Part shown: positions 1,607 to 10,452 of the stretch, piece after piece
Layout of the letters: each line of letters opens with the position of its first letter
Position numbering within the stretch: position 1 is the first letter of the stretch
Assembly (NCBI GenBank): GCA_003153055.1
Contig: PMBV01000449.1
Coordinates: forward strand, 1 to 16,050
Length of the DNA: 16,050 nucleotides
Direction: 5' to 3'
Origin: Myxococcales bacterium
Lineage (GTDB): Bacteria > Myxococcota > Myxococcia > Myxococcales > Myxococcaceae
Translations under genes and position numbers: made by a program
The notes under the pieces: model-generated
Told to the model about the DNA's origin: nothing
Databases searched by the model: none
Seen by the model: the letters and a program-made list of their open reading frames with translations, nothing else

Positions 1607-2767
1607 ATGAACAAGCCGTCCAGGACGCCGTTGATGTTCCCTCTGGCTGCAATGATGGCGCTCATCTCGGCGTGCTTCGACTTCGAGCATGCCTACGGCG
1701 TCTACTGCGACAGTGGCCGGTGCGATGGTACCGCGACGGGTGGAGGTACTGCGACGGGCGGAGGTACCGCGACGGGTGGAGGTACTGCGACGGGTGGAGG
1801 TACTGCGACGGGTGGAGGTGCTGCGACGGGCGGAGGTACGGCGACGGGCGGAGGTACGGCGACGGGTGGAGGTACGGCGACGGGGGGTGGGACTGCGACG
1901 GGTGGAGGCACGGCGACCGGAGGGGGTTCGGCCGGAGGTGGTTCAGGCCAGTGCCGGGCCTTCGGTAGTTCCTGTTCGCAAGAAGGGGACTGCTGTGCCG
2001 CGGGAGACGCCGGGCTTGTGATGGCGTGTAGTCGAAACAACTATTGCGAAGACACCGCTCGCGACTGTCGTGAAGGTGGCTTCTCGTGCAGCACCGCATC
2101 TCAGTGCTGTACGAATCGCTGCGAGGCCGGACGCTGTCCACTCTGTGGCTTCTCCGGCGATTCATGCACGGCGGCGACCGATTGCTGTAATGGATACACC
2201 TGTGAAGGCGGCCGCTGCGTCGACTCCATGTCTCAAGATGGAGACGCGGGCGCTCGTTGCCAGTCCTCCGCGTACTGTGCCAGCGGCTGGTGCGAGCCCA
2301 AGGACGCGGGTCCTCAGAACGGAGTCTGCAGCGCGCCGAAGAGCTGCATGCCGCTCGGAGCGGCCGGAAGCCCGTGTTGTGCGGGCCTGCAGAGCGGAGC
2401 GACAGCGTGCTGTCTCCCTGACAAAGCTTGGTGCGAGTACGGCAGCGATTGCTGCGGAGGCGAGTGCTACGGCGGCCGCTGCACTTCGGCGGTCGATCTC
2501 AACCTTGGCGATCGTTGTTCCTCGACGCCGAACTGCTCCGGTCGGAACTACTGCGACCCAGTGAACGGTCTCTGCACCAATCGGTGGTGCCTGCCTCAAG
2601 GTCTCAACGCCTGGTACGGCTGCTGCTCGTGGGTCACGGGCTCTTCGCCGTGCGTCTTCGCCGACGGTGGCCAGTGCGTTCTCCCCGGCATCCACGCGGT
2701 CAACGCATCGGCCTGTTGCTCGGGCCAGATGGACTCCTACGGGTGCACGGCCGTCTACTTCTGGTGA
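1607..2767 (+). CDS. Cys-rich predicted lipoprotein with a GTATGG-repeat stalk
   Basis: This is a 386-residue predicted lipoprotein. The signal sequence has a hydrophobic core (MFPLAAMMALISA) and a lipobox ending ISA-C23. The residue after the Cys is Phe, not Asp, so outer-membrane targeting is expected. Residues 41-106 are 11 copies of the hexapeptide GTATGG (one is GAATGG), a flexible stalk. Residues 116-386 are Cys-rich, with repeating patterns such as CTAATDCCNGYTCEGGRC and CEYGSDCCGGECYGGRC, which resemble disulphide-knot modules. Such stalk-plus-Cys-rich proteins are common on myxobacterial surfaces, but their roles are mostly unknown. Start ATG 1607 has GAGGGAG (1591-1597) at good spacing. 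It converges on the cytochrome-like gene with only 19 bases between. Adhesion or binding is possible but not shown. Confidence 0.85.
   Translation: MNKPSRTPLMFPLAAMMALISACFDFEHAYGVYCDSGRCDGTATGGGTATGGGTATGGGTATGGGTATGGGAATGGGTATGGGTATGGGTATGGGTATGGGTATGGGSAGGGSGQCRAFGSSCSQEGDCCAAGDAGLVMACSRNNYCEDTARDCREGGFSCSTASQCCTNRCEAGRCPLCGFSGDSCTAATDCCNGYTCEGGRCVDSMSQDGDAGARCQSSAYCASGWCEPKDAGPQNGVCSAPKSCMPLGAAGSPCCAGLQSGATACCLPDKAWCEYGSDCCGGECYGGRCTSAVDLNLGDRCSSTPNCSGRNYCDPVNGLCTNRWCLPQGLNAWYGCCSWVTGSSPCVFADGGQCVLPGIHAVNASACCSGQMDSYGCTAVYFW
1727..1924 (+). repeat. In-frame 18-bp tandem repeat, 11 copies, encoding GTATGG
   Basis: Eleven consecutive 18-bp units of the type GGTACNGCGACGGGYGGA lie inside the lipoprotein gene. 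Units differ mainly at wobble positions (ACT, ACC, ACG; GGT, GGC), and one unit encodes GAATGG. Because the unit is a multiple of three, copy-number change by slippage or recombination would lengthen or shorten the stalk without breaking the frame. Confidence 0.95.
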
Positions 2768-3381: not shown

Positions 3382-4356
3382 GTGGCGAGACTCACACAGC
3401 CTCACGACAAGTTCCTGAAGGCACTTCTGAATGACCCAGCGGTGGTGTCCGCGCTGCTCCGCGAGCGGCTCCCGGCTCCTCTGGTGGCGCTCCTCTCTGA
3501 GGACCCGCCCGAGCTGGTCGACGGCGTCTTCGTCGACGACGCGCTGAGGGAGTCGCGGTCCGACCGGCTGTATCGGCTCAAGCTCAAGGGGGACGGTGCG
3601 CTCTTCGTGTACTGCCTCATGGAGCACAAGAGTGCAGGCGAGGGGCGAGCAGGGCTCCAGCTCCTTGGCTACATGGTGAGGCAATGGGAGCGGGAGGAAG
3701 CCGGGTCCGGCGAGCCCCTGGCGCCGATTCTGCCGCTCGTCATCTACCATGGCCCGACGCCTCCCAAGACGTCACGGTACTTCTCGGAACTCGTGGCGGC
3801 GCATGGGGCGAAACTCGGCGTGAAGCCGCTCGACTTCGAGATGGTGCTGGTGGACCTCGGGGCAATCGATGACGACGAGCTGTCGGGCGAGCCTACGCTT
3901 CGAGCGGGCCTCCTCGCGCTCAAGTACGCAACCAGAGAGGCCCTCCAGGGAGCACGTCTACGCAAGGTGCTGACGGCGCTCGCCGCGGCCCCCGGGCTGC
4001 TGCGCGTGGCACTCGTGTATATGATGGAGACCTACCGGGGTGTCAACCGAGCCGAGCTGCTCGGCGAAGCCTGCCGGGTGATGCCGGAGGAGGACGTGAT
4101 GACGGTCGCACAAGAGCTGAGAGATGAGGGGCGAAAACAGGGACGTCAGGAGGGCCAGCGAGAAGGCCTCGCGGAGGGCCGAGTAGAGGGCCAACGCTCG
4201 ACGCTTCTCCGCGTCCTCGCGAGGAGGTTCGGTGGCGTCCCCGACGACGTCCGAGGTCGAGTCATGGTCGCGGACTCGGCAGAGCTCGGGGGCTGGCTCG
4301 ACCTCTCCTTGGACGCCGCGACGCTCGACGCCGTCTTTGGAGCTGCCACCCACTGA
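3382..4356 (+). CDS. Rpn family recombination-promoting nuclease / putative transposase
   Basis: The 324-residue product matches the Rpn (YhgA-like, Transposase_31) family. These are PD-(D/E)XK nucleases that cut DNA and can promote RecA-independent recombination; they are not true transposases. The N-terminus (PHDKFLKALLNDPAVVSALL) is the family's usual opening. The probable active site is D61 (SDRLYRLKL) with E81-x-K83 in CLMEHKSAGE, and LPLVIYHGP is the conserved strand that follows. A charged Gly/Arg/Gln-rich linker (about 240-273, RQEGQREGLAEGRVEGQ) leads to a C-terminal DUF4351-like domain (LLRVLARRFGGVPDDVRGRV). The start is GTG at 3382 with GGAGGG about 8 bases upstream. No terminal repeats or target duplications flank it. 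Its end meets a hairpin at 4360-4387. Confidence 0.9.
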   Translation: MARLTQPHDKFLKALLNDPAVVSALLRERLPAPLVALLSEDPPELVDGVFVDDALRESRSDRLYRLKLKGDGALFVYCLMEHKSAGEGRAGLQLLGYMVRQWEREEAGSGEPLAPILPLVIYHGPTPPKTSRYFSELVAAHGAKLGVKPLDFEMVLVDLGAIDDDELSGEPTLRAGLLALKYATREALQGARLRKVLTALAAAPGLLRVALVYMMETYRGVNRAELLGEACRVMPEEDVMTVAQELRDEGRKQGRQEGQREGLAEGRVEGQRSTLLRVLARRFGGVPDDVRGRVMVADSAELGGWLDLSLDAATLDAVFGAATH

Positions 4357-4359
4357 CGT

Positions 4360-4387
4360 CGAGCGAGCGTCGACTCACGTTCGCTCG
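4360..4387. terminator. Strong hairpin between convergent genes, candidate transcription terminator
   Basis: An 11-bp stem, CGAGCGAGCGT paired with ACGTTCGCTCG (one G-U wobble), closes a 6-base loop just 3 bases after the Rpn stop codon. It lies before the end of the opposing operon at 4426. No U-tract follows on either strand, so an intrinsic terminator is not textbook. It could act in both directions or protect 3' ends. Confidence 0.55.
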
Positions 4388-4425: not shown

Positions 4426-5871
4426 TTACGGAATATAGAGGCCGACCTGCACGAAGGCCCCGTAGCCCGAGAGGCCGTATTCGCTTTGCGCCCCGAAGGT
4501 CGTCGTGGCGCGCTGCCAGGCGGCGCTGTTGGCGAGGACGTCGGCTCCCGACAGGCTTCGCATCAGCCCGAGGTCGACGCCCTTCCCGATGGGGACGAAC
4601 CCGCCCACGCGCAGGAGCACGTGCTGCTCGAAGGAGTACTCCAGCGACGGCACGAAGAGCGCCGACGGGTCCACCAGGTTGACGATGGCCGTCAGCGACC
4701 CGGTCAACAGGTCCGTGGCCAGCCACGACGCGGTGACGCCCGCGTAATGCCGCTCGGCCCCGAAGACCTCTCCACGCACCACGCGATCCGAGGTCAGCAC
4801 CCCGAGGACACCGGCCGCAGAGTGGGCCCCGAAGCCGTTGAAGTAGTACTCCGCCCCGAGGACGAGGGCTTCCACCGGTCTCCACTCCAGGCCCACCACC
4901 GCCCGCACGAAGTCGCCCTGTACCCTGAGCGGCTCGCTGGCTCCCAGACCCACCAGCGGCAACGTCCACGCGGCCTCGCCGTGCGCGCCCAGGGGACCGA
5001 GGTCGCCAGAGAAGTCGGCCCCCACCACCACGTCACCCACGTACTTGCCTACCGTCACTGAGAAGTCCCAGCCGACGAGGTTGGTGCGGGCCCGCACCAC
5101 GCCGCCCATGTCACGGGCGAGCTTCTGGGGGAGCCACAGCACGTCGAGCTGAGAGGTCGCTCCCAGCGAGAACGACACCCGCGCCGCGTCGGCCCCTCGT
5201 CGCACCTCGCGATCCACGTCGGTCGGCGCGAAGGGGCTGATGAGGTCGGTCGGGTTCCACAGCCGCCCGGTGCCCCAGGACAGCACCTGTCGTCCTACCA
5301 CCACCGTCACGTGCGTGCCTCGCCAGGTGAAGGCCAGCCGGTCGAGGTTGTGTTGAATGCGAAACGAGCCCGCGTCGAGGAGAAACGGCTCGAAGTCGAC
5401 CAGGCGCCGCTGGGGCGTGATGAGGGCCGCCCCCAGGTAGCTCGAGCCTCCCGCGCCGGCGAAGGCCGCGTCAGACGCGAGGATGACCGCCGCCTGCCAG
5501 GCCACCTCGAGCTCGAGCGCGTCGGTCCACGAGACCTTGCCACCCACCCTGAAGGTGTGCGTGCTGATGCCCACCTGGAGCGGCAGGCCCGACAGCGAAG
5601 GGAGCTGGGCCGCGGTCTCGGGAGGCACCATCGCCTTGGCCTGGTCGAGCGCGCCCGCCAGGTCCTTGGTGCCCTCCACCAGCGAGCTCTGGAACCTCAA
5701 CCACGAGATGTATGGTTTGTAGAAGCCATTGCCCTCGATGGTCCAGTCGCCGCTCTTCCACACCTCGGCCGCATGAGCCGCTCCGCCCCAGAGGGCGAGG
5801 AGCAGCCCCACGGCTCTCGCGCCGTGCGGGGCCCACGAGCGCGGCACGTCGGAGATGTCCGTCGTCTCCAT
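4426..5871 (-). CDS. DUF1302-like outer-membrane beta-barrel protein, last gene of the ABC/LolA-like operon
   Basis: The 481-residue product has a signal peptide (hydrophobic AVGLLLALWGGAAHA, likely cleavage after A34). A long region of alternating, aromatic-flanked strands follows, as in outer-membrane barrels. The stretch GRQVLSWGTGRLWNPTDL (193-210) is typical of DUF1302-like barrel proteins. Many later segments end in aromatic/Gly strand patterns (LEWRPVEALVLGAEYYFNGF). The last residues are GLYIP rather than the usual terminal Phe, which is slightly atypical for the barrel-assembly signal. It starts 6 bases after the ATPase stop, with GAGG overlapping that stop. In context it would be the outer-membrane end of the transport route: a pore, receptor or insertion platform for the cargo. 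Assignment as a barrel is fairly firm; the function is inferred. Confidence 0.78.
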   Translation of the reverse strand: METTDISDVPRSWAPHGARAVGLLLALWGGAAHAAEVWKSGDWTIEGNGFYKPYISWLRFQSSLVEGTKDLAGALDQAKAMVPPETAAQLPSLSGLPLQVGISTHTFRVGGKVSWTDALELEVAWQAAVILASDAAFAGAGGSSYLGAALITPQRRLVDFEPFLLDAGSFRIQHNLDRLAFTWRGTHVTVVVGRQVLSWGTGRLWNPTDLISPFAPTDVDREVRRGADAARVSFSLGATSQLDVLWLPQKLARDMGGVVRARTNLVGWDFSVTVGKYVGDVVVGADFSGDLGPLGAHGEAAWTLPLVGLGASEPLRVQGDFVRAVVGLEWRPVEALVLGAEYYFNGFGAHSAAGVLGVLTSDRVVRGEVFGAERHYAGVTASWLATDLLTGSLTAIVNLVDPSALFVPSLEYSFEQHVLLRVGGFVPIGKGVDLGLMRSLSGADVLANSAAWQRATTTFGAQSEYGLSGYGAFVQVGLYIP

Positions 5872-5877
5872 GTCGCC

Positions 5878-6579
5878 TCAGGCGCTCGGCGCGGCCTTGG
5901 GGGGCCGGCTGTCGGAGGCGATGAGCCCATCGACGAGGCGCACCACCCGGTCGGCTTGCTCCAGCACCATCGGGTCGTGGGTGGAGAAGACGAAGGTGAT
6001 GCCCCGCTCGCGGTTCAGCTCGCGCATCACCGCCACCAGCGCGCGCCCGGTGGCTTGATCGAGGTTGGCGGTGGGCTCGTCGGCCAGCACCACCGCGGGC
6101 ATGGGCACGATGGCGCGCGCCACCGCCACCCGCTGTTGCTGCCCGCCGCTCATCTTCGAGGGCCAGCTGTCGAGGTAGTCGCTGATGCCGAGGCGAGCGA
6201 AGACGGCCTTGACCCGTTCCCGGCGCTCCTGGCTCGCGACGCCCTGGAGCTGGAGCACGTACTCGGCGTTCTCCATCGCCGTGAGAACGGGAATGAGGTT
6301 GTACGCCTGAAAGACGAAGCCAACCTTGTCACGCCGGAGGTCGGCCAGTTGCTGGCGTGAAAGGCCAGAGAGGGCTTGCCCGCCGACGCGAACCGCCCCA
6401 CTCGACGGTAAATCGAGCGCGCCGATCAAGTTGAGCAGCGTCGTCTTGCCGCTGCCCGAGGGCCCGGCGATGGCCATGAACTCGCCCTTCTCGACGGTGA
6501 GCGACACGCCCTTGAGCGCCTGCACTCCGACGCCCTCGCCGTAGGACTTCGTGACGTCGACGACTTCGACACTGGACAT
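5878..6579 (-). CDS. ABC transporter ATP-binding protein, LolD/MacB type
   Basis: This 233-residue ATPase has every hallmark of the type VII (LolCDE/MacB/FtsE) ABC class: Walker A GPSGSGKT (39-46), Q-loop VFQAYN (89-94), signature MSGGQQQR (143-150), Walker B VVLADEP with catalytic E168, D-loop NLD (172-174) and switch H201 (STHD). It would power the two permeases encoded just upstream. Its length equals that of LolD, with no fused permease (unlike MacB). The start ATG 6579 is clear: AGGAGG (6588-6593) overlaps the stop of the preceding permease and sits 8 bases before the ATG, giving probable translational coupling. The C-terminal tail DSRPPKAAPSA is a short non-conserved extension. Confidence 0.95.
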   Translation of the reverse strand: MSSVEVVDVTKSYGEGVGVQALKGVSLTVEKGEFMAIAGPSGSGKTTLLNLIGALDLPSSGAVRVGGQALSGLSRQQLADLRRDKVGFVFQAYNLIPVLTAMENAEYVLQLQGVASQERRERVKAVFARLGISDYLDSWPSKMSGGQQQRVAVARAIVPMPAVVLADEPTANLDQATGRALVAVMRELNRERGITFVFSTHDPMVLEQADRVVRLVDGLIASDSRPPKAAPSA

Positions 6580-6591
6580 GAGCTGTTCCTC

Positions 6592-7821
6592 CTACCGGGC
6601 GTGGAGCGCCTGCACTGGCCGCATTCGGGAAACGCGCCACGCGGGGAACAGCCCCACGAACAGCGCCATGATGTAGACCATTCGAGCCGACTTGAGCCCA
6701 TCGAGCACCGAGAACTTGGTGATGAAGGCGCCCCGCATCGTCGCCCCACCCATCTCTATGCCCTCGCCGACGACCTTGGTGTAGTCGAGCAGCACGTTGT
6801 GGCTGCCGTACCAGGTGATGGAGAGGCCGATGGTGAGCCCCAGCGCGACCGCCAGCGAGGCGATCCAGAAGGACTCGGCCAAGACGAGCCCGACGACTCC
6901 GCTGGGCCGGGTGCCGAGCGCCTGCATCACGCCGAACTCGTGCGTGCGCTCCAGCACGGACATCAGCATCGTGTTGAGAATGCCCAGGCCGACCAGGAGG
7001 TACACGAAGAGGGAGATCACGAGGATCATGCTGTCCATGTACGAGTCGAGTGCCTTGAGGATGGGGACGATCTCGTAGAAGCTCGCCACCTGCACCGACG
7101 GCCCCAGGCTGACCCTGAGCCGCTGGGCGAGCGCCTCGGCCTGGCCCGGCTCCTGTATCTGAATGACGATTTGATGCGCCCCTTCGACGCCGGCCAGGTT
7201 GGTCGCTCCGGCCTGCGTCACCAGCACCCGCCGCCGCGACAGCGCCGACGAGATGGAGTGGTAGATGCCTCGCACCCTGAAGAGCTCGGCCCCCATCTCT
7301 CCGTCGGGCCGCTGCACCATCAGCCGCAGCTTGGAGCCCAGCGTGAGGCTCAGCCTTCGGGCCAGCTCGTCTCCCACCAGGACCCCGTGGGCGTCGTCGG
7401 GGGCTGGCGCCTGGCCCTGGCGAATCGTATGGGCGTAGTCGGCCACCGTGACCTCGTCAGCGAAGGTCACGCCGTGGATCTCCACCGCTTCGTTCCCGTG
7501 GGTGCTCGAGGCGAGGCCGCGCAAGACGAGCCGGGCCGCCACGTCGGACCCCGGTGGCAAGGCAAGCGTCGCTCGGAGCGCCTGGGGGTCGGGCAGCACG
7601 TCTTTCACCGAGCGATGGGTTCGCCAGCCGGGGGCCGTCAGCTCGACGTGGCCCATGCCCGAGCTGTCGAGCTGCGTCTTGGCCTCGTCCTGAAAGCCGC
7701 CCAGCAACCCGCTGAAGAAGACCGTCAGCACCAGCCCGATGCCGATGGCCGACATGTTGATGAGGGTGCGCCGGCGGTTCCGCCAGATGTTGCGCCAGCC
7801 CAGCGTGAGCGTCGAGAGCAT
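6592..7821 (-). CDS. ABC transporter permease, LolC/E (FtsX/MacB_PCD) type, second of two
   Basis: The 409-residue protein has the four-helix plan of LolC/LolE. TM1 is at about 20-40. A large periplasmic domain spans about 45-260. TM2 (264-288), TM3 (310-335) and TM4 (378-395) form the C-terminal FtsX domain. The N-terminal cytoplasmic motif WRNIWRNRRRTLINM and the coupling-helix motif ERTHEFGVMQALGTRP (291-306) are canonical and contact the ATPase. The periplasmic domain is where Lol-type permeases load cargo onto a chaperone. The gene starts one base after the stop of the other permease (TGACATG) and ends in the Shine-Dalgarno of the ATPase gene. It is distinct in sequence from the neighbouring permease, so the two likely form a heterodimer. 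Confidence 0.93.
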   Translation of the reverse strand: MLSTLTLGWRNIWRNRRRTLINMSAIGIGLVLTVFFSGLLGGFQDEAKTQLDSSGMGHVELTAPGWRTHRSVKDVLPDPQALRATLALPPGSDVAARLVLRGLASSTHGNEAVEIHGVTFADEVTVADYAHTIRQGQAPAPDDAHGVLVGDELARRLSLTLGSKLRLMVQRPDGEMGAELFRVRGIYHSISSALSRRRVLVTQAGATNLAGVEGAHQIVIQIQEPGQAEALAQRLRVSLGPSVQVASFYEIVPILKALDSYMDSMILVISLFVYLLVGLGILNTMLMSVLERTHEFGVMQALGTRPSGVVGLVLAESFWIASLAVALGLTIGLSITWYGSHNVLLDYTKVVGEGIEMGGATMRGAFITKFSVLDGLKSARMVYIMALFVGLFPAWRVSRMRPVQALHAR

Positions 7822-7822
7822 G

Positions 7823-9028
7823 TCAGGTCTCCCTCACCGCGACCGCGGGTTGGAGCCGCGAGGCGCGCCACGCGGGGAACAGCGACGCGGCGATCATCGT
7901 CGCGGCCACGGTGATGCCCGCGGCGACGAGGGCCTGGGGCTGGAAGTGCAGCTCGATGACCGAGGGCAGTCGAACCCCCATCATGTCGCTGTTCGACACC
8001 TCTCCCAAGTGCACCGTCCCGACGGCGAAGATGAGGAGCGCGGTGATGGCGACGCCTCCGAGGAAGCCCAGCACACCCTCGAGCACCGCCTCGGTCACCA
8101 CCAGGCGGAGCAGCCGGGCAGGGCGGGTGCCCACCGCCAGCATCACGCCGAACTCGCGGGTCCGCTCGAAGGTCGACATCGTCATCACGTTGAGGACGCC
8201 CAGGGAGACGAGCAGGAAGACGATGACGTCGACCAGGTGCTGATTCTTTCGCTTGGAGTCCATCGTCTTCTTGAACTCGGGCAGCATCTCGTTCCACGAC
8301 AGGGCCTCGAGGGACTTGAGGTCGAGCGCCGCGCGGGCGGTCATCAGGTAGCTGGTGATGTCCTCTTCGTCGGTGGGGAGGTGCACCACGACGGAGTTCA
8401 CCGCCTCGCCCAGGCCGAAGAAGTCCTGCGCGTCGGCCAGGTGGAGGAAGACGCCCGTCGAGTTGAGATCCGAGCTGCCCGCGTCGCCGATGCCCACCAC
8501 GGTGAAGCGGTCGTTGGCGACCGAGCCGTCGACGGCCTGGCCCACCAGCACCAGCTCGCTGCCCACGTCGACGCTCAGCTCGTCGGCGAGCTCGTTCCCG
8601 ATGACGACCTCCTTCTTCGCCGCCTCGCCGAGGCCTCGGCCCCTCTTCACGGCGAAGATGGTGGCGCTCTGGCCGGCCTCGAGGCCCATCACCACCACGC
8701 CCTCGGAGCTGCTCGCGCCACCGGCCAGGCCGGCGCCGATGACGCGGCGCTCGCTCTTTGCTCCCGGAATCGCCTTGGCCAGGGTCGCCTCGACGAGGCG
8801 TGGCTCGGCCACCACCGTGGTGAGCTCGGGCGACTCCTGGTACCCACGCCCGTGGATCTGCAGGTGGCCGGTGAGCTGGGTAGTGATGGCGCGGGTCATC
8901 TGCCCATAGACGGCTTCACGGTAGGTGCTGAGGAAGGCGATGCCCGTGGTGCCCAGGCTCAACGCAGCCATCGTGAGAATGGTGCGCCTCGGGACCCGCC
9001 AGAGGTTTCTCCAGGCCATGACGAACAT
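7823..9028 (-). CDS. ABC transporter permease, LolC/E (FtsX/MacB_PCD) type, first of two
   Basis: The 401-residue protein has the same topology as its partner: TM1 about 17-35, a periplasmic domain of about 225 residues, then TM2 (265-287), TM3 (306-336) and TM4 (366-386). The N-terminus WRNLWRVPRRTILTM and the motif ERTREFGVMLAVGTRP (288-303) are the conserved cytoplasmic and coupling elements. ATP hydrolysis in this class drives periplasmic movements that push lipid-like cargo out of the inner membrane, rather than classical alternating access. It starts 3 bases after the LolA-like stop and is followed after 1 base by the second permease, so the two are probably made in equal amounts. The absence of a MacA-like adaptor argues for a Lol-like role rather than a MacAB efflux pump. 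Confidence 0.93.
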   Translation of the reverse strand: MFVMAWRNLWRVPRRTILTMAALSLGTTGIAFLSTYREAVYGQMTRAITTQLTGHLQIHGRGYQESPELTTVVAEPRLVEATLAKAIPGAKSERRVIGAGLAGGASSSEGVVVMGLEAGQSATIFAVKRGRGLGEAAKKEVVIGNELADELSVDVGSELVLVGQAVDGSVANDRFTVVGIGDAGSSDLNSTGVFLHLADAQDFFGLGEAVNSVVVHLPTDEEDITSYLMTARAALDLKSLEALSWNEMLPEFKKTMDSKRKNQHLVDVIVFLLVSLGVLNVMTMSTFERTREFGVMLAVGTRPARLLRLVVTEAVLEGVLGFLGGVAITALLIFAVGTVHLGEVSNSDMMGVRLPSVIELHFQPQALVAAGITVAATMIAASLFPAWRASRLQPAVAVRET

Positions 9029-9031
9029 GGG

Positions 9032-9808
9032 TCACTTTCCTTGTTGCAGCCGGTGAAGGCTGAAGGTGTCGTCGGAGATGTCGGCGTCGAACTCGATGGA
9101 GTCGTAATGGATGGTGGTCTGCCGCCCGGCCTCCTGAGGAATGACGGTCATCGTGGCGGGGAAGGCTCGCCAGCCCACCTGCTTCACGTCGGAGAAGAGC
9201 ATCTGGCGCATCGGCTTGTTCTCTTCGTCGTAGAAGCGCTCGGCCAAAGGCACGCAGGTCGTGCGATCGAGGTCGAGCTCGATCTTGTTCCACACCACCA
9301 CCGCGTCCTTGTGGGGCGTCAACACGAGCCGCCAGGCCTTGCGGCCGTCGACCTCGACCAGGCTGTCGACCTTGGAGTCGAAGTCCTTGGCGATGGAGTT
9401 GCCCTTCACCAGGTCGTCGTTGGTGAAGTCGCTGCCCAACCACGAGTCACCCAGCATGCCCGAGGGCAACTTCATCACCCGCCCGGCCTGGGGCAGCCAA
9501 TTCCATAACTGCTTCTCGCGCTTCAAGGTCATCATGCCCGTCTCACGGGGGCCGCCCTCGAGCACGCGTATGAGGGCGAAGTCCGAGGCCTTGCTCCACA
9601 CCTTCATGGTCAGCTTGCGGCTCCAGGCGGGGGTCTTGATGGTCATCGCCATCACCGCGATGCTCGAGTGGCCCTGGTTCACCTGCTCGTAGCGAGTGAG
9701 CAGCTTTCCGGTGTTCGGGGCGTCTTCGGTCGAGGGGCAGGTGGGAAGGTCGGCCGGCGGCCCGGGGGGTGCCGCGGCGAGAACCAACAGCGCAGCCAGC
9801 GTATTCAT
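9032..9808 (-). CDS. LolA-like periplasmic outer membrane lipoprotein-sorting protein
   Basis: The 258-residue product belongs to the LolA_like (PF17131-type) outer membrane lipoprotein-sorting proteins. They have an open half-barrel with a greasy cavity that shields an acyl chain or other hydrophobe across the periplasm. The diagnostic segment is GMLGDSWLGSDFTNDDLV (117-134), preceded by WNWLPQAGRVMKLPS and followed by strands ending DADISDDTFSLHRL. A short signal peptide (MNTLAALLVLAAAPPGPPA) lacks the usual basic n-region. The start is secure: AAGGAGG (9813-9819) precedes the ATG, which overlaps the tetR stop by ATGA. It is the expected carrier between the two permeases and the outer-membrane barrel. 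Whether its cargo is a lipoprotein, a lipid or a pigment cannot be read from sequence. Confidence 0.9.
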   Translation of the reverse strand: MNTLAALLVLAAAPPGPPADLPTCPSTEDAPNTGKLLTRYEQVNQGHSSIAVMAMTIKTPAWSRKLTMKVWSKASDFALIRVLEGGPRETGMMTLKREKQLWNWLPQAGRVMKLPSGMLGDSWLGSDFTNDDLVKGNSIAKDFDSKVDSLVEVDGRKAWRLVLTPHKDAVVVWNKIELDLDRTTCVPLAERFYDEENKPMRQMLFSDVKQVGWRAFPATMTVIPQEAGRQTTIHYDSIEFDADISDDTFSLHRLQQGK

Positions 9809-10452
9809 ACAGCCTCCTTCTCGAGAGCTCTTTCAGGGGGGGCGACGAGTCGACGGAAGAAGTCGAAGAGCAACGACGCGAGGCGGTCGATCTCCTCGAG
9901 CGTGAGCAGCCCGTCGCGCGGGAGCTGCACCTTGAGCAGGGCTTCCTTGGTGCCGCTCATCACCGCCATCAGGACTTCGACCGAGAGGTCGCGGCGCACG
10001 GCCCCGACCTCTTGCCCTCGTCGCCAGGCAGACATCGCGAGGCTGAGGTAGTCGGAGACCAGCGGGAGCACCTTCGCCGCGAGCTCAGGGTGGTCGACGT
10101 ACGCCCGGCCTAGCTTGCCGACCAGCTCGAGCTGCGAAGGGTCGTGCGCCAACGGCTCCAGGCTCTTTCTCTGGAAGTGCTCCATGGTCGTCCAAAAGGA
10201 CGCTTGGTCGACGATGGCGGTGAGGTCCAGCGTCGCCATCAGACTGCTCGTCGCCTGGGCCAGGGCCGTGGCCGCGAGGTCGGCCTTGTCGTCGAAGTAA
10301 TAGTAGAAGCTGCCTTTGCTCAGCCCCGCCGTGGCGATGATGCGGTTGAGCGACGCTCCCTCGTAGCCTCGACGACCGAACTCCTTGGTCGCGGCCGTGA
10401 GGATGCCGTTTCGGAGCTCTTCTGGGGCGTTCTGGAAGCGTGGTCTAGGCAT
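9805..10452 (-). CDS. TetR/AcrR family transcriptional regulator, first gene of the transport operon
   Basis: The 215-residue protein has the TetR N-terminal DNA-binding domain: a helix (LRNGILTAATKEFGRRGYEGAS) and a helix-turn-helix at about 33-55 ending in the recognition helix SKGSFYYYFDDKADL. The C-terminal part (about 70-205) is a divergent ligand-binding domain. It is the first gene of the operon and overlaps the LolA-like gene by 4 bases, so it is co-transcribed with the genes it probably represses; autoregulation through the palindrome at 10514-10529 is likely. The effector would plausibly be a hydrophobic molecule related to the cargo, which is an inference. No good Shine-Dalgarno lies in front of ATG 10452. 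Confidence 0.93.
   Translation of the reverse strand: MPRPRFQNAPEELRNGILTAATKEFGRRGYEGASLNRIIATAGLSKGSFYYYFDDKADLAATALAQATSSLMATLDLTAIVDQASFWTTMEHFQRKSLEPLAHDPSQLELVGKLGRAYVDHPELAAKVLPLVSDYLSLAMSAWRRGQEVGAVRRDLSVEVLMAVMSGTKEALLKVQLPRDGLLTLEEIDRLASLLFDFFRRLVAPPERALEKEAV

Follow-up and report, generated by a model that had tools for sequence, protein, structure and literature searches.

A TetR-led operon in Myxococcota that combines a type VII ABC transporter with a LolA-like carrier and an outer-membrane barrel

We analysed a 16,050-nucleotide stretch of a Myxococcales bacterium (contig PMBV01000449.1; hereafter the window) that carries one compact operon for a TetR-family regulator, a periplasmic LolA-like carrier, two permeases and an ATPase of an ATP-binding cassette (ABC) transporter, and an outer-membrane barrel. 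With moderate confidence, we read this operon as a shuttle-and-barrel exporter that is driven by ATP and moves a lipid or hydrophobic small molecule. The carrier, the two permeases, the ATPase and the barrel (the core five) are conserved in Myxococcota, Pseudomonadota and Bacteroidota. All six open reading frames (ORFs) lie on the minus strand between positions 4426 and 10452, and the junctions recomputed from their ends are a 4-bp overlap between tetR and the carrier gene followed in order by gaps of 3, 1, 12 and 6 bp. This reproduces the genes, coordinates and junctions of a preliminary description of the window, which had reported six genes joined by anything from a 4-bp overlap to a 12-bp gap and had seen in them an envelope-spanning set, a view that the family scans and the conserved barrel beside the other genes support.

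9805..10452, minus strand: TetR-family regulator, first gene (Pfam TetR_N, 5.2e-14)
9032..9808, minus strand: periplasmic LolA-like carrier (PF17131 LolA_like, 1.3e-38), N-terminus signal-peptide-like by eye
7823..9028, minus strand: permease A, type VII ABC (MacB_PCD and FtsX)
6592..7821, minus strand: permease B, type VII ABC (MacB_PCD and FtsX)
5878..6579, minus strand: ABC ATPase, DevA/MacB/LolD-like (ABC_tran, 3.5e-33)
4426..5871, minus strand: outer-membrane barrel, last gene, 481 residues, N-terminus signal-peptide-like by eye
4360..4387, no strand: inverted repeat with 11-nt arms and a 6-nt spacer, in the interval separating the stop codons of two convergent genes, the barrel gene and an Rpn-like gene; possible terminator

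Scans for promoters, terminators and inverted repeats in the region upstream of tetR returned nothing usable.

Conservation of the core genes

A genome scan with an alignment of carriers recovered 11 Myxococcota loci related to the window operon, while a scan with the carrier sequence alone found no relative. Among the candidates scored, 708 relatives of the carrier and 239 of the barrel were obtained at E <= 0.001. The core five stand in window order in six of the 11 loci, and the other five break at a contig edge inside the operon; the same order is seen at a further locus, L058. The preliminary description had proposed co-occurrence of the six families in this order as a check; the core five show it in all six uncut loci, and the barrel, whose loss from the set would have spoken against the description, is kept beside the core. 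In three genomes (G007, G008 and G009), the carrier contig breaks off, and a different contig bears a close barrel together with its ATPase.

The carrier profile gave 71 matches in 56 of 195 Myxococcota genomes, with two or three matches in 12 of the 56, and the barrel profile reached 136 of the 195 genomes among the matches listed, many of them by remote members alone. At least 44 of the 71 carriers lie no more than 8 kb from a barrel or DUF1302 match: 7 of the 10 closest carriers (E < 1e-100), then 22 of 25, 6 of 10 and 9 of the 26 most remote. This lower bound was counted from 71 carrier matches, 54 barrel matches (from up to eight candidates scored per genome) and nine DUF1302 matches, the last two groups being strong or on carrier contigs. 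Co-location of carrier and barrel is more than chance, for which a rough estimate gives ~0.5% per carrier (assuming two randomly placed barrel matches per 7-Mb genome). Five of the 27 carriers that the count leaves unpaired adjoin a weak barrel match of 20–30 bits (L050, L060, L103, L107 and L109), and the three closest of the 27 sit at contig ends. Seen from the other side, a carrier lies within 8 kb of 28 of the 36 strongest barrels (>=90 bits). The eight others comprise six whose contigs stop inside the set or close to it (G007, G008, G009, G036, G059 and G115), one with no ATPase in the 4-kb piece examined (G012) and one true exception on a 275-kb contig (G168:C4).

Other gene orders appear among 20 further loci, including barrel-ATPase-permease-permease-carrier (for example, L043–L046), barrel-carrier-permease-permease-ATPase (L054) and permease(s)-carrier-barrel-ATPase (L050, L103 and L109). 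Because gene content is kept while order shuffles, the link looks functional rather than positional, which is good evidence of a shared job.

Beyond Myxococcota, we searched 72,556 plasmid-collection records at the protein level and detected the carrier in four and the barrel in two. A 2.06-Mb Vibrio campbellii record (L110) has carrier-permease-permease-ATPase-barrel in window order, after a GGDEF gene, and a Persicobacter record (Bacteroidota; L111) has the same six genes in the same order, TetR-carrier-permease-permease-ATPase-barrel. Two more Persicobacter loci (L112 and L113) contain TetR and a protein of 378 or 389 residues together with ATPase, two permeases and carrier. In the permease tree, Vibrio and L111 are paired for the first permease (100/100) and again for the second (98/99); the second permeases in L112 and L113 group with those of reversed-order Myxococcota sets (99/94). 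With permeases A and B in separate clades and the Vibrio and L111 permeases paired by position, the two-permease design is old, and no fewer than two old subfamilies, both with two distinct permeases, seem to span different phyla. The second permease tree held 67 rows, 12 of them flagged for composition, and support for its deep branches is weak (62/79 at the midpoint); L093, which duplicates L010, was left out of both trees and L049, L056, L059 and L011 out of the second.

The regulator is common but not part of the core. Its profile finds relatives in six of 13 close loci, with the gene upstream of the carrier in L001, L002, L005, L010 and L058, and a TetR gene leads three of the four plasmid-collection loci (L111–L113); the dedicated TetR control proposed earlier would apply to some of these operons only. 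The GGDEF protein that precedes the V. campbellii operon (L110:6387-7826, plus strand) has a solute-binding-like domain, and a different mode of control is possible there.

Across 21 related loci and the window, we found no shared gene beyond the core except kinase-like ORFs (37–38% identity, two groups of three loci each) and some pairs. Other-frame shadows of the core made up most shared ORFs, and flank lengths differ, so that a shared neighbour could be missed. Within the compared flanks, no biosynthetic, catabolic or lipoprotein gene was found as a conserved neighbour of the core. A GMC oxidoreductase that adjoins L058 and L009 was considered as a cargo clue and dropped, being common to these two loci alone. 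Related proteins (52% identity) occur near two separate sets of genome G168 (L051 and L052), the one at L051 belonging to the Phosphodiest family. In the window itself, the gene convergent with the operon (3382-4356, plus strand) encodes an Rpn/YhgA-like putative transposase-nuclease (PF04754, 3.7e-38). Elsewhere in the window, 10.6 copies of an 18-bp repeat encoding a Gly-Thr-Ala spacer (1727-1917) lie in an ORF (1607-2767, plus strand) for a putative 386-residue cysteine-rich secreted protein or lipoprotein with no Pfam match.

Component families and separateness from the Lol pathway

The carrier scores 132.9 bits against PF17131 LolA_like, above the gathering score of 30, and has no match to PF03548 (LolA) at E <= 0.1. 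Its predicted structure has the half-barrel fold of the LolA/LolB/DUF1329 superfamily and is of the DUF1329/LolA3 group type, nearer to that group than to LolA. Alignment with hhalign to the housekeeping LolA of relatives (eight ORFs) gave a probability of 1.3%, a weak test given that two of the eight (L078 and L079) look wrong-frame. The carrier family bears an MGSDF-type motif, including members paired with MMPL pumps and DUF1302-like barrels. Residues 116–136 (window 9401-9463, minus strand) form a near-invariant loop (MGSDFTNDDL-type) with the lowest AlphaFold confidence in the carrier, likely a docking or lid element.

Permeases A and B, which carry MacB_PCD and FtsX and are accompanied by an ABC ATPase, belong to the type VII ABC class. 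Against TIGR02212 (LolCE), they reach 81.6 and 90.7 bits, respectively, with a curated cut-off of 362, and so fall outside LolCE; the cut-off is strict for this phylum, because the best match passes it in just one of 12 relative genomes. In the tree, permease A is separated from permease B and the housekeeping permeases as a clade of its own (100/100), permease B likewise forms its own (100/100), and the nine best LolCE-type permeases of the same phylum make up one clade (100/100) apart from both. The best structure-sequence matches include MacB for both permeases and LolC and LolF for permease A, which suggests that the permeases act at the periplasmic side. The best NCBIfam match of the ATPase is DevA (215.8 bits), below every cut-off among the best 25 matches listed, and its translation contains readable motifs that we take to be Walker A, signature and Walker B.

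The barrel reaches 12.5 bits against DUF1302 (PF06980), below the gathering cut-off of 23.2, and a comparison of the barrel and DUF1302 profiles gave a probability of 46% over 27 columns alone. The barrel carries a conserved motif, GRQVLSWGTGRLWNPTD..SPF, and has a motif in common with DUF1302. The predicted structure is OprD/AlgE-like, nearest to OprD-type porins, with ~18 strands. Several labels of the preliminary description change accordingly: the 'LolA-like' carrier keeps its name through PF17131 and is not LolA by family models, the 'LolC/E-type' permeases become type VII ABC permeases of the MacB/LolC kind that score far below the LolCE cut-off, and 'DUF1302-like' survives for the barrel as a weak label, given the sub-threshold score and the OprD/AlgE-like model.

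Relatives also carry separate LolA and LolCE-type genes. In each of the 12 relative genomes searched, a LolA that exceeds the PF03548 cut-off lies away from the operon, and all 12 have a better LolCE match elsewhere (best stretch, 214–316 bits versus 77–116 bits for the operon permeases); an ABC ATPase ORF adjoins the LolCE-type permease in nine of 11 such loci examined. With LolA and a stronger LolCE-type permease elsewhere in every one of them, the operon is an addition to the Lol pathway, and the earlier claim that it differs from the housekeeping system is borne out in relatives.

A proposed export route and its rivals

From these parts we infer complex formation, an outward direction, a cargo class and a target for TetR. 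Permeases A and B would pair as a heterodimer to which two ATPase copies are bound and, by mechanotransmission as in LolCDE, MacB and YbbAP, this ABC complex would lift cargo out of the inner membrane at its periplasmic leaflet. Next, the PF17131 carrier would take the cargo into its half-barrel and ferry it to the operon's own barrel of ~18 strands, which would take the place of LolB and pass it into or through the outer membrane. TetR, where present, is the likely local switch and may sense the cargo. Local TetR regulation, the lack of a conserved biosynthetic neighbour and the two or three carriers of some genomes favour efflux or lipid remodelling over a fixed envelope component.

Several observations weigh against this export reading. 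Hydrophobic alternation in the carrier strands is no better than in shuffles (481 of 2,000 reached the observed value), and the TetR profile found no relative in seven of the 13 close loci. The barrels of L112 and L113 are assigned by position alone, with a barrel score of 12 bits or nothing, and genome G168 holds a carrier set without an adjacent barrel (L051) and a barrel set without a carrier (L052). The barrel model is nearest to OprD-type porins, which are uptake channels. In addition, a mutant of ameABCD, which encodes a related exporter discussed below, had Nile Red efflux kinetics almost like the wild type (PMC6394551), and the need for DUF1302 and DUF1329 proteins on Tween 20 in Pseudomonas putida could mean uptake (PMC10866462).

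One rival is an uptake or retrograde route, in which the barrel would admit a hydrophobic nutrient, the carrier would move it inward and the ABC complex would help its insertion into the inner membrane. Besides the predicted porin fold, this route can appeal to P. putida, where the DUF1302 and DUF1329 proteins, predicted to bind each other, are required for growth on Tween 20 (PMC10866462), and to an MMPL/LolA-like protein of T. oleivorans that is up on long alkanes (PMC6304351). We nevertheless regard uptake as improbable: the type VII ABC systems described in one paper serve in extraction, export, regulation or signalling from the periplasmic side (PMC12646458), AmeABCD acts as a protective exporter (PMC6394551) and the compared flanks show no conserved catabolic gene next to the core.

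Somewhat less improbable, though still unlikely, is a second, specialized lipoprotein route, in which the ABC complex would extract particular lipoproteins, the carrier would deliver them and the barrel would place or flip them at the outer membrane. For permease A, the closest structure-sequence matches include LolC and LolF, and the predicted carrier fold is a LolA/LolB-type half-barrel. On the other hand, the hairpin of permease A that aligns with a stretch of LolC, presumably its LolA-binding Hook, is shorter and different in sequence in 11 of 11 rows; the carrier is nearer to DUF1329/LolA3 than to LolA, the barrel resembles OprD/AlgE and no conserved lipoprotein gene was found beside the core in the compared flanks. 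Precedent cuts both ways: a lipoprotein route is one possibility raised for the Borrelia cluster BBJ23-BBJ29, which also has an ABC transporter, a LolA-like protein and a barrel (PMC13078400), while the LolA3 of P. gingivalis bound its own LolB weakly (PMC13103446).

It seems very improbable that the genes adjoin by chance, or that they encode an ordinary MacAB-like pump plus an accessory protein that merely resembles LolA. MacB does appear among the best structure-sequence matches of both permeases, but ATPase and permeases are separate genes in the window, and carrier, barrel and ABC genes stay together in different phyla and gene arrangements. Among the 17 proteins of the window that were scanned with Pfam there is no MacA-type adaptor or TolC-type channel, in keeping with the contrast with MacAB-TolC drawn earlier from the missing adaptor.

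Known uses of type VII ABC machines are lipoprotein release, drug efflux, control of cell-wall hydrolases and, recently, lipid extraction for hydrolysis. If the export reading is correct, an ABC set with its own carrier and barrel would be a further use, it would help to account for extra LolA-like proteins without a known role in these genomes, and the role of DUF1302/DUF1329-type pairs would become directly testable, one operon for one hydrophobic cargo.

Relation to known systems

Carrier-profile matches beside a DUF1302-like barrel and a long membrane protein also occur in Myxococcota (L095, L096, L099 and L100). The long membrane protein of L095, L099 and L100 is MMPL (1e-48 to 2e-54), the carriers of L099 and L100 belong to PF17131, and L100 has a TetR-like gene upstream as well. 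At L104, the carrier adjoins an MMPL protein and there is a 421-residue neighbour with no assigned family, while L103 and L109 have ABC motors and barrels that match both barrel profiles weakly and no Pfam family. Because the carrier family stands beside DUF1302-like barrels and an MMPL/RND pump, the ABC operon is tied to the AmeABCD arrangement. On our best reading, it would be the ABC-motor version of a carrier-plus-barrel arrangement whose RND version is AmeABCD. Separately, rhomboid-domain proteins with a TPR tail adjoin a carrier and a DUF1302-like barrel (L097:6929-8680 and L107:4365-6125), and L094 is similar by layout and size alone.

Like the operon, the HAE3 RND exporter AmeABCD brings together in one cassette a dedicated outer-membrane DUF1302 barrel (AmeA), a periplasmic protein of the LolA superfamily (AmeB, DUF1329) and a motor in the inner membrane, and its cargo is hydrophobic, as proposed here (PMC6394551). 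Its deletion made Castellaniella defragrans less tolerant of monoterpenes and led to a slight rise of Nile Red in cells treated with carbonyl cyanide m-chlorophenylhydrazone (CCCP) (PMC6394551). Unlike the operon, whose motor is ABC and not RND (MMPL/HAE3), AmeABCD uses an RND pump and has an extra periplasmic protein, AmeC, and AmeA is a DUF1302 member whereas the operon barrel lies below the DUF1302 cut-off (PMC6394551). Iron-regulated operons of Porphyromonas and Prevotella have a TetR-MMPL-lipoprotein-sorting layout, with an MMPL pump and a neighbour, PG1178, called hypothetical, and such operons are strongly induced in iron-starved Bacteroidetes (PMC10434189).

The Borrelia cluster (2026) likewise combines a type VII ABC transporter, a LolA-like protein and an outer-membrane barrel and is predicted to deliver a non-polar ligand, being known by prediction alone; it differs in that its barrel is of the Omp85 type, a single permease is proposed to act as a homodimer, and two TPR proteins and BBJ29 are present (PMC13078400). 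LolCDE-LolA-LolB shares with the operon two permeases, one ATPase and a periplasmic half-barrel carrier, but the operon proteins fall outside the LolCE and LolA models and a barrel takes the place of LolB. MacAB-TolC shares the MacB_PCD and FtsX domains of type VII ABC systems, whereas the operon has a soluble carrier and its ATPase on its own polypeptide.

Shuttle-and-barrel logic thus already has two precedents, Borrelia BBJ23-29 and AmeABCD, and the idea is not unique. Among the best-ranked matches in the openly licensed PMC literature, we found no description of an operon of PF17131 carrier, type VII ABC transporter and DUF1302/OprD-like barrel; within that scope, what is new is a two-permease type VII ABC transporter with a PF17131 carrier and an OprD/AlgE-like barrel over three phyla. 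More tentatively, and with slightly less than even confidence, we propose that the PF17131 carrier and OprD/AlgE-like barrel may be a transferable cassette placed on two unrelated motors (ABC and MMPL/RND), with a third arrangement beside rhomboid-TPR proteins, and that the operon may represent a widespread, unnamed class of type VII ABC systems that expel lipids or solvents without TolC, an adaptor or LolB.

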